Source: a virus. From it: a DNA stretch of 64,000 bases. The stretch is from the IMG/VR virus record IMGVR_UViG_3300047471_000162, positions 1 to 64,000 of that record; one strand, written 5' to 3'. A model generated the notes under the pieces. It did not search any database. It was not told the DNA's origin and worked only from the letters and a program-made list of their open reading frames with translations. Of the stretch, positions 2,600-47,698 are shown in pieces; within the stretch, counting starts at the first letter, position 1, and each line of letters starts with the position of its first letter. The translations under genes were made by a program, and so were the position numbers.

Positions 2600-3676
2600 T
2601 CCCTCCCTCGTGTTCGTTCGCTGCTGACAGGGAGAACACTCCTCTTCTCTCGTCCATCTGTCAACTCCGCAGGTCAGAGGGCATTTGATCTAGGTATCTC
2701 CACCCAAGCCAAGGGTCGCAGACCCTCCCCCAACGGGTTTTTCGGCCCGCCGGAGGCATTCCTTACTACTTCTATACCCTAAGAGTCAATACATACTACA
2801 TAGATGGATAGATATTCATTACCTATGGATAGACATACATACAGTCATCTATGGATCTACTACAAACCCATAGCGACCTACCCAGAGCCCTATAGGGACC
2901 TAAAAACGCGCGATACCACATGCCATGCCACTACGTCAAAAAGCCCAAAAACGGCCCTCTAAGGCTCTGCTACACCCTCCTAGGTCCAACCACCCCAGGA
3001 CACTCCTGATAGCCCCGTAGAGACGATCTCACTCTCTGGTGATAGACCACATGAGGACTAGACCACTACTGGTATACCTGTTGACCTGGGGTTATCTGAT
3101 ACATGCACATACATACAAGACCATATGTCCGATATGCCCTAGAACCACCACACATACACCCCAGCACAGAGAGTCAATCAACCCACAGACCTCTTGACGT
3201 CCCTCTAGGCCGTAGGCTAGGGCACATGACCAACTAGGCTGAAAGCCTATATACCCCATTACCAACTAGGCTTTTAGCACATATACCCCATTACCAGGAC
3301 ATGAATACACTCATTCACCAGCCAATTCACCACAGTATCCCATTCAATGCTTCCTAGAATGCCAGAGATGTCTATGCCCGAATGCCCCTATTCATACGGA
3401 GAGTAACCATCATGCCCCTTTTTCCCTAGGGAAAGCATAACGCAGAGTAATAATAGCCCCGAATAGCCCTATTTAGCCTATTGTTTATGTCAATTCGAGA
3501 CCCCCCACCTTTAATAAAGCCATTCAGGGTGATGGCCTGCCTGGTAATTTGAATATGGTTTCAAGAAATACCTGAGGGCAGTACCCTTACTCTGCGGGAG
3601 AGTATTGTAATTTGAATACGATTCTGACTTCTCTCGTAGTACAGTATCCGAGAAAAGAAGATGGTATCCTATACCC
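2600..3676. other. gene-free, repeat-bearing AT-rich region
   Basis: About 1.07 kb with no convincing gene on either strand. It contains three ATGGAT-centred copies (about 2803-2855), a 32-bp tandem repeat at 3229-3292, repeated ATTCA/GAATG words around 3300-3470, and a repeated GTAATTTGAATA word near 3545 and 3608. One leftward frame (3511-3711) overlaps the start of the next gene and has no ribosome binding site. The region separates the GC-richer left arm from the rest and could hold an origin, packaging or terminal-repeat boundary signal; nothing here proves which. Confidence 0.6.
3229..3292. repeat. tandem 32-bp direct repeat
   Basis: Two adjacent 32-bp copies start ACCAACTAGGCT and end ATATACCCCATT, differing by only a few bases in the middle, with ACCA of a third copy following. 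The repeat lies in the gene-free region. Confidence 0.75.
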
Positions 3677-3973
3677 ATGACTAATACATATGCTGATTCA
3701 AGAGATGACAACTACAACTGGCTGTTCGGAGATATGGATATACCCTCTGGTATGTGGCTAGAATTACACAGAGATCTTGACTATCCCCGATACCGTTTAC
3801 TCCTTATGGATGCTTCTGGTCCTCTGGAGGCTATGCTTATATATCCTAGTGAGGAGCGTATGACTGCTAAAGAGATGATAGGTAATCCTATGCCGACTTT
3901 TCTCCTATGGATAGAACAGAAGAAGAAGCTTGAAAAGAGTAGAAGACAGATAGTTGCACAGTTAGGTTTCTAA
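3677..3973 (+). CDS. hypothetical protein
   Basis: A 98-residue protein starting MTNTYADSRD, with a Trp-containing middle and a basic coiled C terminus (EQKKKLEKSRRQ). No family is recognised. It is isolated: gene-free DNA upstream and a perfect hairpin terminator directly downstream that separates it from the convergent leftward operon. The ribosome binding site is weak (AGAAGA about 14 nt upstream), so expression may be low or the start uncertain. Confidence 0.6.
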   Translation: MTNTYADSRDDNYNWLFGDMDIPSGMWLELHRDLDYPRYRLLLMDASGPLEAMLIYPSEERMTAKEMIGNPMPTFLLWIEQKKKLEKSRRQIVAQLGF

Positions 3974-11381: not shown

Positions 11382-11459
11382 GCCGCTGTTACTCTGTTGG
11401 TAGGGGTGCCCTGGTTTTCACCCAGGATGTCAGCGCCGGTTCGATTCCGGTCAGCGGTA
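11382..11459 (+). tRNA. tRNA-Glu (TTC)
   Basis: Acceptor GCCGCTG/CAGCGGT, anticodon stem CCTGG/CCAGG with loop TTTTCAC, T-arm TTCGATT. The 64 nt before it hold only small hairpins. Confidence 0.93.
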
Positions 11460-11539
11460 CTTCATTAATTTAATAACTTTCCTATACAATAGACTTATGC
11501 TATAGCGAGCATTTCTATTTTCCTAGGAAAGGTATTCCC

Positions 11540-11839
11540 ATGGCTTTTACTTATACTATTGTTAAGGCTGATGCACTAGCCGTTAACGATCAGGTTCGTG
11601 CGGCAGTTATGCAGGACGGTCACTGCTACGTATTTCCAGTCCCTACAACTTCTGGGGCAACATTTCCCACCACTGTACGTTCTATCACTAATCTAGCTGC
11701 CGGTACTCCTGGTGCTGGTGGAACTGATGGACTATACAGTGTGCAGCTAAATAACGCTTCTGTATTTGCTCTACCAGTTGATTTCGTTATTAACGATAAT
11801 AACGACTTCATCGTTAAGGCAACAGGTACTGCTCCGTAA
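11540..11839 (+). CDS. hypothetical, beta-rich protein
   Basis: A 99-residue protein, low in charge, rich in Val, Thr and Gly, starting MAFTYTIVKADALAVNDQVR. The pattern looks like a small beta-barrel or virion-associated protein, but no family is recognised. AGGAAAGG lies upstream of the ATG. It has its own leader of ~80 nt after tRNA-Glu, including a TATACAAT word near 11483 that could be part of a promoter. Confidence 0.75.
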   Translation: MAFTYTIVKADALAVNDQVRAAVMQDGHCYVFPVPTTSGATFPTTVRSITNLAAGTPGAGGTDGLYSVQLNNASVFALPVDFVINDNNDFIVKATGTAP

Positions 11840-15208: not shown

Positions 15209-15298
15209 TATTTTTAATCCTCCCCATTGTCCGAGTTTTCTCGCACTAATGGGGTTTATTTTTCTCTAACCATGTACCACGATAAAGGAGGCAATACA

Positions 15299-16876
15299 AT
15301 GGCTAAGTTCAATCAGGTAGTTAAGACAGGTGTACAGTCCCCTATTAAGACTACAGTTAAGACTGTAAACGCTGATGGTTTCGCAGCATTTCAGAGGGAT
15401 ACCAAGTCAGAGCTGTTCCTCCTGGCAGTATCCAACTTTGTTGGGCAGGATATGTTCTATGAGAATGCAAAGAACCGTGATGACCGTTTTGCCAAGCTCT
15501 GCCAGGCAGTAGCTGTGCAGGATTCCGACTGGTTCCGCAAGTTCGTGGGTTGGCTCCGTAATGGTGCTCAGATGCGTTCTGCGTCCATCGTAGCGGCTGC
15601 TGAGGGTGCTAAGGCACTTCTAGACGCTGGCGCGGTGAATGGCTCTCCTAGGGCCCTTGTAGCGGCTTCTATGGCACGTGCTGATGAGCCTGGTGAGTTC
15701 CTGGCATACTGGACTTCTAAGTATGGTAAGAATCTGCCTCAGTCGATTAAGAAGGGTGTTGCTGATGCGGCTAACCGTCTCTACAACGAGTACTCTCTTC
15801 TTAAGTACGATACGGATTCCAAGGGGTTCCGTTTTGCTGATGTTCTTCAGCTTAGCCACGCTAAGGCAAAGGATGCAAAGCAGAACGACCTTTTCCACTA
15901 TGCACTGAACCGTCGTTATGGTAAGGAGCACGTTATTTGGCATCACAATGCGCAAATTCCATTGAATCTTCCTATGATTGACATTCGACGTTTTATTATG
16001 GATCTTCCAGTTAATAAGCGCCGTGACTACCTGTCAAAGGCTCCTGAAGCCTTTAAGAGTGCGGGTATGACTTGGGAGGCTCTTGCAGGATGGCTTCAGG
16101 GTCCTATGGATGCTCAGGCTTGGCAGTCAGTTATTCCCAACATGGGTTATATGGCACTGCTTCGTAACCTTCGTAACTTCCAGGAAGCGGGCGTGGATAC
16201 TAAGGTATTCAAGTCTGTGCTGACTAAGCTATCCAATAAGGATGAGGTTGCAAAGTCTCGTCAGTTCCCTTTCCGATTCCTGTCTGCCTACCAGGCAAAT
16301 CTGGGTAACCTCAAGATTGCTGCGGCTCTCGAAGAGGCACTAGAGTCTTCTCTTATTAACGTTCCGGCGCTATCTGGTAAGACTTTGATCCTGGTTGACC
16401 GCTCTGGTAGCATGTTCTGGAGCAATGATGACAAGATGAACCTGACGCTTGCCGATCAGGCAGCGATCTTCGGATCCTCTTTGGCACTGCGTGCTGAGAG
16501 TGCTACACTGGTCCAGTTCGGCTCTAGCTCCTCTGAGATCAACTTCCGCAAGGGAGATTCTGTTCTCAAGTTGGTCAAGGACAGTTTCATTGGGATGGGT
16601 GGCACAGCTACAGATCGTGCTATCAAGGCGCACTTCAAGGATCATGATCGTGTTATTCTCATCACTGATGAGCAGTACAACTCTGGTCATGCTCCTTCTG
16701 TACCTAAGGGCACTCCGATGTACACGTGGAACCTTGGTGGATACCCGGCTGCTCAGGCAGAGTCCGGTAGCAACAAGAAGCACACATTCGGTGGCTTGAC
16801 TGACAAGGCATTCAGTATGATCCCTATGCTTGAGTCTGGTCAGTCTGGCGTTTGGCCTTGGGATCTGGTAGAGTAG
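15299..16876 (+). CDS. Ro60 (TROVE domain) RNA-binding protein
   Basis: A 525-residue Ro60 orthologue. Residues ~25-350 are the TROVE region of helical repeats that form the RNA-binding ring. The C-terminal part is a von Willebrand A domain with an intact MIDAS: LVDRSGSM, the Thr of GGTATD, and the Asp of ITDEQ. Ro60 binds Y RNAs and misfolded RNAs; in Deinococcus a Y RNA tethers it to PNPase. The ATG at 15299 follows AAAGGAGG; an upstream in-frame start at 15227 lacks one. Four Y-RNA-like elements lie immediately upstream, so protein and RNA partners are encoded together. Effect on host or phage RNA is inference. Confidence 0.95.
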   Translation: MAKFNQVVKTGVQSPIKTTVKTVNADGFAAFQRDTKSELFLLAVSNFVGQDMFYENAKNRDDRFAKLCQAVAVQDSDWFRKFVGWLRNGAQMRSASIVAAAEGAKALLDAGAVNGSPRALVAASMARADEPGEFLAYWTSKYGKNLPQSIKKGVADAANRLYNEYSLLKYDTDSKGFRFADVLQLSHAKAKDAKQNDLFHYALNRRYGKEHVIWHHNAQIPLNLPMIDIRRFIMDLPVNKRRDYLSKAPEAFKSAGMTWEALAGWLQGPMDAQAWQSVIPNMGYMALLRNLRNFQEAGVDTKVFKSVLTKLSNKDEVAKSRQFPFRFLSAYQANLGNLKIAAALEEALESSLINVPALSGKTLILVDRSGSMFWSNDDKMNLTLADQAAIFGSSLALRAESATLVQFGSSSSEINFRKGDSVLKLVKDSFIGMGGTATDRAIKAHFKDHDRVILITDEQYNSGHAPSVPKGTPMYTWNLGGYPAAQAESGSNKKHTFGGLTDKAFSMIPMLESGQSGVWPWDLVE

Positions 16877-20207: not shown

Positions 20208-20278
20208 GCCCGCTTAGTTCAATGGGAGAACAACGGTTTTACACACCGTTTACGGGGGTTCGATTCCCTCAGTGGGTA
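20208..20278 (+). tRNA. tRNA-Val (TAC)
   Basis: Acceptor GCCCGCT/AGTGGGT, anticodon stem ACGGT/ACCGT with loop TTTACAC, T-arm TTCGATT. Confidence 0.93.
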
Positions 20279-20287
20279 CGCTTTAAT

Positions 20288-20366
20288 GGGGATCATCTGG
20301 ATTCGACTAGCTTTAAAGCCGCATGTCGGACAGGCTAGGAAGGGGGTTCAAATCCCCCGATCTCCA
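20288..20366 (+). ncRNA. ssrA: very short tmRNA-like RNA
   Basis: The 5' end GGGGATCATCTGGATTCGAC matches the conserved tmRNA start and D-loop. Acceptor GGGGATC/GATCTCC includes the G3-U70 alanine identity pair (20290/20363). The T-arm is GGGGG-TTCAAAT-CCCCC. In place of the usual ~250-nt tag and pseudoknot domain, a CTAGC/GCTAG stem (20307-20311/20334-20338), corresponding to tmRNA helix 2, closes over a 22-nt loop with a CCG/CGG mini-hairpin. There is no anticodon arm. It is either a reduced tmRNA or a decayed one; the intact pairing favours the first. Confidence 0.75.
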
Positions 20367-20370
20367 CTTT

Positions 20371-20447
20371 GCTACCAGACCTAAATCACAAGGCGTGGTA
20401 ACGCTCTGCAAAAGCGTTGGTTCGGAGTTCGACTCTCCCTGGTAGCT
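20371..20447 (+). tRNA. tRNA-Cys (GCA)
   Basis: Acceptor GCTACCA/TGGTAGC, anticodon stem ACGCT/AGCGT with loop CTGCAAA, T-arm TTCGACT. It starts 4 nt after the tmRNA-like RNA. Confidence 0.93.
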
Positions 20448-45793: not shown

Positions 45794-47698
45794 ATGGTTT
45801 ACCAGAGACCTGGCGTATATGTTAATACGTCATTGACTCCGCTGACTACTGGGACAACAAGTCCTGGTCAGTCCACAGCGGCATTTGTAGGTGTGCACAC
45901 ACAGGGACCTACTATTCCTACGCTAATCACTAGCTGGAATCAATTTAATACTTTATATGGTGGCTTCGGTAACGGCCAGAATCTATTACCGTTTGCTGTA
46001 TGGCAGTACTTTGCCAATAATGGTAATCAATGTTATGTAGTAAGAGCCACAGGCTCTGACGCTGTAGCCGCTGTAGAGACTGTCAACGACAGAGAAGTTG
46101 GTGCTGGAGGTATTCTTCCACCTACTAACGTAGCTGCCACTCCTGGTGGATCTACAACCCCTTCCCAGCTATATGGGTATACCGTTACAGCAGTTAACGT
46201 CAATGGTGAGACTAATGGTGGAATCGAAGCTACAGTTACTGCTAACTCCACACTTACTTCTGTAAATAACGTAGTAATTACATGGACTCCAGTAACGGGT
46301 GCAACTGGCTATCGCATCTACCGTAGAAATCTAACCCTCTCCGGTCCTCAGCCTACTCCTTTACTATTAACTTCTGTAGTGGGGCAGTCCACAGCTACAT
46401 TCACTGACACTGGTGCATTCACTCCTGTTGGCCCTATTCCTCTTTACAACAGCACAGGTGCTCCTGTTCCTATCCTTAAGCTGACAGCTTCTGCTGTAGG
46501 AGTTTGGGGTAATCAAATCTATGTGGACATCACTGATAGCACTCTAGGCGCCGGACGCGTATCACTAACCGTTCGTTACGGTGGTACCTCAGATTCAAAT
46601 ATCGTAGAACGCTTTGTCGATGTAACTATGAATAGAACAGATCCACGCTACTTAGTAGCTATGATTAACTCTTCTATACTAGGTTCGAAGTACATTCGTG
46701 CTACTGATCTAGGAACATATGTAACATGGACTACTGCGCAGACTCCACAGACCCAATCCGGCGTAGCACTAACCGGTGGTTCTGATGGTGTTGCAACTCC
46801 TAACCTTGTTAGTGCAGTGCAGACACTATCTACGGTCCAGGGAAATATAGACCTGAACCTTCCAGGTATTACTAGCTCTACAACTCTGAATCAAATAATT
46901 ACATTTGTTACAGCTAATCCAAGTCTATTCTTAGTAGTCGACACACCGCCTGCCATCATAGGTTCTGATGGTGTAACACCTAATGAATCCGCAACCGTTA
47001 ATAGTTACCTATCCATGGTTATCGGAAATACTCAGTTGACACCGAATGCTCAGACTGCAATCTATGGCCCATGGCTACAGGTGGCTGATCCTATTTCGAC
47101 AGTGCCAGGAGCTACTAGAACTCTTCCCCCTGGTGGAGCAGTACTAGGTCTTTACTCTCAGACAGACGCTAGAGTTGGAGTACAGAAGGCCCCTGCTGGG
47201 GTTAATATTCCTCTACAGCGTGTAGTTAATGTTGAGCTTCCATTCCAGAATAGTAACTTGGATGTACTAAACACTAACTCTATTAATGTCAATAGATCTG
47301 TTCCAGGTTATGGTTTCTGTGTTATGGGGACTAGAACTCTTCTAACAAGCCTGCCAAGTCGTTATGTAAATATTCAGAGAACACTGAGAAGCATTCAGTT
47401 CAATCTAACAGGACTTACTCAGTTCGCAGTATTCGAGAACAACAATGAGAATCTTTGGTCCCGCTTGACCGCAGTAGTTAAGCAGTATCTACAAGGTATC
47501 TGGCAGCAGGGTGTTCTACAGGGCGACACAGCAGATCAGGCTTTCTTTGTGCAGTGTGACGGTCAGAATAATACCGCTACAACTATTGCTGCTGGTGAAG
47601 TACATGTCAAGGTTGGTCTTGCCTTAAATACTCCTGCCGAATTTGTTGTTATCGACATTAATCAAATGTCCAGCAACTCTACAACAGTAACCGCGTAA
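45794..47698 (+). CDS. tail sheath protein with an inserted FN3-like domain
   Basis: A 634-residue contractile sheath subunit. The N terminus YQRPGVYVNTSLTP and AAFVGVHTQGP and the C-terminal PSRYVNIQRTLRSIQ..FAVFENNNENLWSRL.. are typical sheath signatures. Residues ~115-215 form an insertion that reads as an FN3-like domain (PPTNVAATPGG.. YGYTVTAVNVNGET.. TWTPVTGATGYRIYRR). The insertion likely points outward and may bind glycans. The sheath contracts to drive the tube into the cell. Confidence 0.95.
   Translation: MVYQRPGVYVNTSLTPLTTGTTSPGQSTAAFVGVHTQGPTIPTLITSWNQFNTLYGGFGNGQNLLPFAVWQYFANNGNQCYVVRATGSDAVAAVETVNDREVGAGGILPPTNVAATPGGSTTPSQLYGYTVTAVNVNGETNGGIEATVTANSTLTSVNNVVITWTPVTGATGYRIYRRNLTLSGPQPTPLLLTSVVGQSTATFTDTGAFTPVGPIPLYNSTGAPVPILKLTASAVGVWGNQIYVDITDSTLGAGRVSLTVRYGGTSDSNIVERFVDVTMNRTDPRYLVAMINSSILGSKYIRATDLGTYVTWTTAQTPQTQSGVALTGGSDGVATPNLVSAVQTLSTVQGNIDLNLPGITSSTTLNQIITFVTANPSLFLVVDTPPAIIGSDGVTPNESATVNSYLSMVIGNTQLTPNAQTAIYGPWLQVADPISTVPGATRTLPPGGAVLGLYSQTDARVGVQKAPAGVNIPLQRVVNVELPFQNSNLDVLNTNSINVNRSVPGYGFCVMGTRTLLTSLPSRYVNIQRTLRSIQFNLTGLTQFAVFENNNENLWSRLTAVVKQYLQGIWQQGVLQGDTADQAFFVQCDGQNNTATTIAAGEVHVKVGLALNTPAEFVVIDINQMSSNSTTVTA

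Follow-up and report, generated by a model that had tools for sequence, protein, structure and literature searches.

The 64,000-nt stretch of DNA analysed here (the window) comes from a virus record of 112,903 bases (IMGVR_UViG_3300047471_000162) and carries a tRNA array with 30 genes called by ARAGORN between 8.4 and 21.5 kb. Within this array lies a 79-nt element that resembles the two ends of a tmRNA joined to each other. This raises the question of whether such an RNA is the leftover of a deletion, a tmRNA with a very short tag, or a molecule with a function of its own. As judged from its sequence and that of its relatives, the element is a tag-less tmRNA made up of the tRNA-like domain (TLD) and a helix 2 that ends in a small hairpin, and it belongs to a large family of phage RNAs. 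Its parts and immediate neighbours are listed in Table 1.

Table 1. Features of the short RNA and of the adjoining tRNA genes; positions refer to the window.
Feature	Position	Strand	Basis or remark
tRNA-Val(TAC), upstream, 8 nt away	20208..20279	+	ARAGORN and Rfam
Tag-less (TLD-only) tmRNA gene, 79 nt	20288..20366	+	G1 to discriminator A73; Rfam RF00023, family model R1, synteny
Acceptor stem, 5' strand GGGGATC	20288..20294	+	G3 = 20290, half of G3:U70
tmRNA-type D-loop region ATCTGGATTCGA, without D-stem	20295..20306	+	Matches Rfam tmRNA consensus AucuGGaUUCGAC
Helix 2, 5' strand CTAGCTT	20307..20313	+	MFE fold; helix 2 positions covary family-wide
A-rich bulge TAAAG (family nAAAG/A)	20314..20318	+	Conserved in alignments
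Capping hairpin CCG-CATGT-CGG	20319..20329	+	MFE fold; replaces tag/pseudoknot domain
Helix 2, 3' strand AGGCTAG	20332..20338	+	MFE fold, family covariation
Remainder of GGAA linker, helix 2 to T-arm	20339..20341	+	In the family GGAC in 56/66 representatives
T-arm GGGGG-TTCAAAT-CCCCC	20342..20358	+	Rfam alignment, sequence reading
Acceptor stem, 3' strand GATCTCC	20359..20365	+	U70 = 20363
tRNA-Cys(GCA)-like gene, downstream	20371..20447	+	Read from sequence; unannotated

The acceptor, D-region, helix 2 and T-arm described in an earlier note on this locus are all located where that note had placed them. The D-region reads ATCTGGATTCGAC (consensus of the short RNAs in the family alignments: GGTTTCGAC), and the proposed alanine identity pair G3:U70 is indeed present in the 7-bp acceptor stem. 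The discriminator A is followed by an encoded C at 20367, the remaining CCA not being encoded; since CCA is likewise not encoded in the tRNAs of the surrounding array, the 3' end of the short RNA follows the convention of its neighbours. The loop between CTAGC and GCTAG has the size of 22 nt given by the earlier note, but is itself structured by the bulge and the hairpin. The 79-nt RNA has neither a tag frame, with its resume codon and stop, nor the pseudoknots PK1-PK4, for which there is no room in so short a gene and in whose place only the 3-bp hairpin is found.

That the tag and pseudoknot domain is missing is confirmed by the Rfam tmRNA model. The alignment to RF00023 (59.2 bits, E 1.2e-20 in the 64-kb window; gathering score 47) covers model positions 1-374 with the middle deleted, both model ends being matched within 82 nt, and it is the sole match above cut-off in the entire 112.9-kb record. 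ARAGORN called neither a tRNA nor a tmRNA at 20288-20366, all of its 30 tRNAs lying elsewhere in the window. We also considered a tRNA-Ala, which shares G3:U70, A73 and the T-arm with the short RNA. This identity was rejected, as D-stem and anticodon arm are lacking, ARAGORN made no call and tmRNA wins the Rfam clan competition; a separate tRNA-Ala(TGC) is present in the same phage at 17006-17080.

A covariance model (R1), built from 32 short forms of other phages, none of which belonged to the Streptomyces group, recovered the window RNA with 49 bits (E 2e-9), most of its relatives with 77-88 bits and the copy of phage Alone3 with 58 bits; the best tRNA in the same search reached 32 bits. The window copy, with GGATTCGAC, a GGAA linker and C7:G66, is divergent compared to most relatives and may therefore be a weaker family member. 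In a second sequence set, the best other match to R1 was found in Microbacterium phage Skylord (37.7 bits). Skylord carries, at 1938-2026, an 89-nt tmRNA-like element with G3:U70 and a divergent D-region, for which BLAST matches exist at the corresponding position in seven further records of related Microbacterium phages.

The nearest named relatives of the window phage are the Streptomyces phages LuckySocke, GiJojo, pSt2308, Alone3 and BRock. As proposed by the earlier note, related phages were searched for the same short form, and it is present at the same place in all five. It is degraded in Alone3 and intact in the other four, where a 77-nt version occupies the same interval, either unannotated or under 'hypothetical protein'. 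Four IMG/VR relatives (L243, L244, L246 and L247), located via the neighbouring phosphoesterase gene, also carry the short form, and in L245 its 3' end lies at the contig edge. All complete relatives examined hence keep the tag-less form at this locus. The opposite case raised by the earlier note, with full-length tmRNAs in the relatives and this isolate alone being short, proved false. For the helicase-related actinophages Manuel, Romero and Abafar, no short RNA was found in the region read.

These data bear on the simple deletion remnant that the earlier note had offered as an alternative. Full-length tmRNAs exist in other phages, so that a source for such a remnant existed, and the Alone3 copy, with a damaged D-motif and mismatched stems, shows decay. 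However, the short form is found in all relatives, with hundreds of tag-domain bases uniformly missing and with strong compensatory change (see below). Furthermore, the LuckySocke and GiJojo copies are 100% identical amid neighbouring tRNAs, coding genes and immediate flanks that have diverged to 68-87%, 73-77% and 43-50% identity, respectively. Synteny and family-wide covariation thus rule against a remnant, and we consider this explanation virtually untenable. LuckySocke (11514-11590) and Alone3 (3603-3678) are near-identical over ~4 kb, with 100% identity in both 60-nt flanks and 81% in the short RNA itself. The simplest reading of this pattern would be that an intact copy replaced a degraded one by gene-sized recombination. 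As the Alone3 copy looks degraded, the short RNA appears not to be indispensable in every host setting.

A fragment of the host ssrA gene used as attachment site (attP) was rejected as well. Both halves of the RNA are present and co-evolve, and the RNA lies within a tRNA array, where the annotations of the relatives show no adjoining integrase. In Streptococcus phage phi30c, by contrast, a full-length tmRNA adjoins the integrase.

As to the surroundings, the short RNA is co-directional with its tRNA array, and this setting is conserved in the relatives, with an annotated tRNA-Val at the corresponding position of BRock, LuckySocke, GiJojo, pSt2308 and Alone3. The tRNA-Cys-like gene downstream has an unusual D-arm, was not called by ARAGORN and scores below the Rfam tRNA gathering score; in L243 and BRock, too, a GCA-loop tRNA-Cys comes after the short RNA. 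In LuckySocke (~11385-11510) and Alone3 (3470-3595), an unannotated tRNA-like sequence with a long insertion separates tRNA-Val from the short tmRNA. The corresponding site of BRock (11402-11480) holds CAGAGG...CCTCTG, which resembles a hairpin and includes a T-loop-like GGTTCGACTCC; this is possibly a Y-RNA or a permuted tRNA-like element. The tRNA region of the window further encodes a Ro-like RNA-binding protein (phrog_850; 15227-16876, plus strand), and both a Ro-like protein and an RNA ligase are also present in BRock and LuckySocke.

Beyond this group, a pattern scan of IMG/VR revealed at least 122 loci. Full pairing of acceptor and T-stem was not demanded by the scan pattern; among the matches listed, 121 of 122 have complete 7-bp acceptor and T-stem pairing. 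After adding an earlier, looser scan, we obtained at least 87 unique sequences, mostly 76-79 nt in length; all family counts derive from sequence patterns and represent lower bounds. The script that selected the 87 sequences required acceptor and T-stem pairing, a 5' GGG and the D-motif; helix 2, the cap hairpin, U70 and A73 played no part in the selection. U70 and A73 are found in 87 of 87 sequences, all of which start with GGG, so that G3:U70 is invariant, while adjacent pairs in the same stem vary freely. Helix 2 was not selected for either, and its pair 1 is formed in 66 of 66 representatives versus 26 in shuffles, with positions 1-6 paired in 80-100% of the representatives versus about 40-50% after shuffling.

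Owing to the variable length of the D-loop, the 5' acceptor was placed wrongly when all members were aligned with MAFFT. Pair counts were for this reason based on landmarks and on a subset of fixed length. An alignment of 32 sequences contains 96.4% standard pairs (69.3% when shuffled) and gives a covariation score of 0.672, compared to 0.136 for shuffled and at most 0.137 for slid controls. Acceptor, helix 2 and capping hairpin covary strongly across the family. In the 32-sequence alignment all five helix 2 pairs show changes on both sides, and both-side compensatory changes are seen in three of the three hairpin pairs, with 89.6% of cells paired in the family. Three tmRNA-like RNAs of 62-64 nt (L053:2366-2427, L059:4080-4142 and L103:10530-10593) have a helix 2 with a bare loop; without the cap hairpin, these may be of another origin.

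The earlier note had also suggested a very short tag, encoded by the frame GCC GCA TGT CGG ACA GGC TAG. This frame is present and stop-terminated in the window sequence, and tags of two residues exist in some bacteria (PMC11915505), but its conservation in relatives is absent. An in-frame stop within the loop or helix 2 is found in 14 of 57 relatives with the motif, close to the shuffled level of 10.6, and in 40 of the 57 there is no stop anywhere in frame. In addition, the frame overlaps the hairpin with its compensating base changes. A tmRNA with a very short tag is thus unsupported by the relatives, and we regard it as exceedingly improbable.

When the identical pattern scan was applied to 84,980 genomes of bacteria and archaea (257 billion bases), four matches emerged, of which two, both in Microvirga, turned out to be ordinary permuted tmRNAs. 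The two genuine short forms lie in metagenome-assembled genomes: one contig carries phage head genes, and for the other a single neighbour matched anything, namely a phage family of unknown function. According to these scans the short RNA family is essentially viral, and its near absence from cellular genomes fits a host-directed function rather than housekeeping. No SmpB gene was found in 51 records (50 related ones plus the window's own), so that SmpB of the host would be needed.

Searching the isolates with whole short RNAs by blastn mostly returned only the 3' T-arm and acceptor shared with full-length tmRNAs, and the matches were for this reason re-checked with covariance models. S-CRM01, SM1, Rb1, QDWS359 and X1 were thereby rejected as short forms, being permuted full-length tmRNAs, and so were GMA2, MrMagoo and phi30c, which have full-length tmRNAs. 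Gordonia phage GMA2 carries a Pistol ribozyme within its tRNA array (2354-2410), and in Mycobacterium phage MrMagoo a GOLLD RNA (2131-2548) adjoins the full-length tmRNA.

The genomic settings of the short RNA are diverse. At 31 of 142 loci (a redundant set that includes several overlapping copies of the window locus), tRNAs are found no more than 1 kb away and almost always share the strand of the short RNA; the remainder have none nearby. Of 12 long contigs (31-112 kb) with the short RNA, 10 lack any tRNA match. At ~15 loci the RNA is placed between prohead protease and major capsid genes, as it is in the isolate Pontimonas phage phiPsal1. About ten loci adjoin a DnaB-like helicase and ten to thirteen others HNH/replication genes; in Stenotrophomonas virus Jojan60 the RNA adjoins four tRNAs. 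Judging by these contexts and hosts, unrelated actinobacterial phages and at least one gammaproteobacterial phage keep the short RNA. A genome of 123.6 kb (IMGVR_UViG_3300025362_000004) has both a short (46486-46567) and a full-length, 392-nt tmRNA (77588-77979), which argues against the short form being simply a substitute. In this genome, about 38 tRNAs are present in the 18 kb read, and ARAGORN reported no confident tag for the 392-nt tmRNA.

One might envisage a role away from the stalled ribosome, e.g. as processing punctuation, as a ligand of the Ro-like or another protein, or as bait for host nucleases. At the ~15 structural loci a tRNA-like cut site could separate the messages of prohead protease and major capsid protein, and the window phage does encode a Ro-like RNA-binding protein. 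On the other hand, the contexts vary widely, from tRNA arrays to structural, replication and HNH modules, and the retention of the tmRNA-specific D-loop, GGAC linker and alanine identity over any tRNA would be left unexplained. We therefore think such a role quite improbable.

RNAs of this kind are already known from one phage: Mycobacterium phage DS6A (tmID 11587) has a 'TLD only' tmRNA (PMC4131195, PMC11915505), likewise reduced to little beyond the TLD, with host tmRNA inhibition as the proposed role. PMC4131195, citing Mao 2009, describes a similar TLD-only molecule that strongly inhibits tmRNA whether or not it can be charged, perhaps via titration of SmpB; PMC11915505 gives a slightly different account, in which the DS6A form itself is inhibitory. 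DS6A is another phage with another host, likened here by its published description. That description covers one phage, whereas the family found here comprises at least 87 distinct sequences, has a covarying cap hairpin and occurs in several genome contexts.

With canonical one-piece ssrA, including that of phages GMA2 and MrMagoo, the short RNA shares the acceptor with G3:U70, A73, the D-loop GGNTTCGAC, helix 2, the GGA linker and the T-arm. It differs by the absence of tag frame, resume codon and pseudoknots, by a hairpin-closed helix 2 and by its size (77-79 nt versus about 350-390 nt). Mitochondrial and about 65-bp plastid tmRNAs (PMC11915505) are tmRNA-derived and tag-frame-less too, but organellar; the plastid forms are shorter and closer in size to the RNAs of L053, L059 and L103 than to the window RNA. 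Nearly the same architecture, a TLD with a short capped helix 2, is seen in the SmpB-binding fragment of structure 2CZJ (PMC3929946), in which 5' 25 and 3' 34 residues are joined by UUCG. This fragment was engineered from Thermus tmRNA; the phage RNAs are its counterpart in nature, their cap being longer and structured.

What could such a molecule do in the infected cell? The TLD has binding partners in AlaRS, EF-Tu and SmpB, and together with SmpB it mimics a whole tRNA; SmpB also binds a TLD fragment, and TLD-SmpB is active on ribosomes in vitro (PMC3929946). The explanation we favour, with confidence barely above even, is that of an alanyl-charged, SmpB-dependent decoy of host ribosome rescue. 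In the window phage, the short RNA would be cut from the transcript of the tRNA array by host tRNA processing enzymes and receive its CCA, whereupon AlaRS would charge it with alanine and host SmpB and EF-Tu would bind. The resulting complex of alanyl-RNA and SmpB would compete with host tmRNA for SmpB and stalled ribosomes. As there is no reading frame, nascent proteins would not be tagged and no stop codon would be provided, so that trans-translation would be dampened or blocked during infection, and unfinished phage proteins as well as non-stop phage mRNAs would be spared destruction. The decoy idea fits a virus-restricted family that retains the alanine identity and the TLD consensus amid strong covariation, and by analogy also the tmRNA inhibition by a similar tag-less molecule reported in PMC4131195.

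Since that molecule, according to the same paper, worked chargeable or not, a pure titration decoy would need no invariant G3:U70. The invariance of this pair suggests a role at the ribosome for which charging matters, and makes untagged release or alanine addition on captured stalled ribosomes a serious rival to the decoy. The charged RNA, with host SmpB and EF-Tu, would enter stalled ribosomes, take over the nascent chain and add at least one alanine, and the complex would dissociate without a degradation tag, which would amount to a rescue pathway of the phage and not to an inhibitor. Invariant G3:U70 and A73 would be expected if charging matters, but not for SmpB titration alone. In vitro, SmpB and a TLD fragment gave rise to polyalanine without template mRNA (Shimizu and Ueda 2006, as summarised in PMC3929946), and a mitochondrial tmRNA without tag frame persists together with a targeted SmpB (PMC11915505). 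However, no release step without a stop codon is known, so that peptidyl-tRNA hydrolase or drop-off would be needed, and in PMC4131195 it is as an inhibitor that a similar RNA is presented. Serious as this rival is, we hold it to be unlikely.

In the open-access literature we found no description of how large the family is, of its near restriction to viruses, of its occurrence on its own or within structural operons, of the covariation of the cap hairpin or of the invariant alanine identity. None of the copies checked in named isolates is annotated as tmRNA. A census of phage tmRNAs used ARAGORN (PMC9004378); the short family is recognised by the Rfam tmRNA model and missed by ARAGORN, and hence by the caller of this census.

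With cultured members at hand (LuckySocke, GiJojo, BRock, Jojan60 and phiPsal1), the question can already be addressed by experiment, and G3:U70, being invariant, offers a one-base test of whether charging matters. In a wider and more tentative proposal, which we rate as possible though rather doubtful, tag-less tmRNAs would constitute a widespread virus-specific class by which unrelated phages take over host rescue, with SmpB-captured ribosomes, untagged alanine ends or extensions, and the cap hairpin as a dedicated functional part. Ribosome rescue is a near-universal quality-control pathway of bacteria and a drug target. A compact natural RNA that apparently serves to engage SmpB while adding no tag would give viruses a counter-measure to this pathway and provide a ready scaffold for inhibitors.
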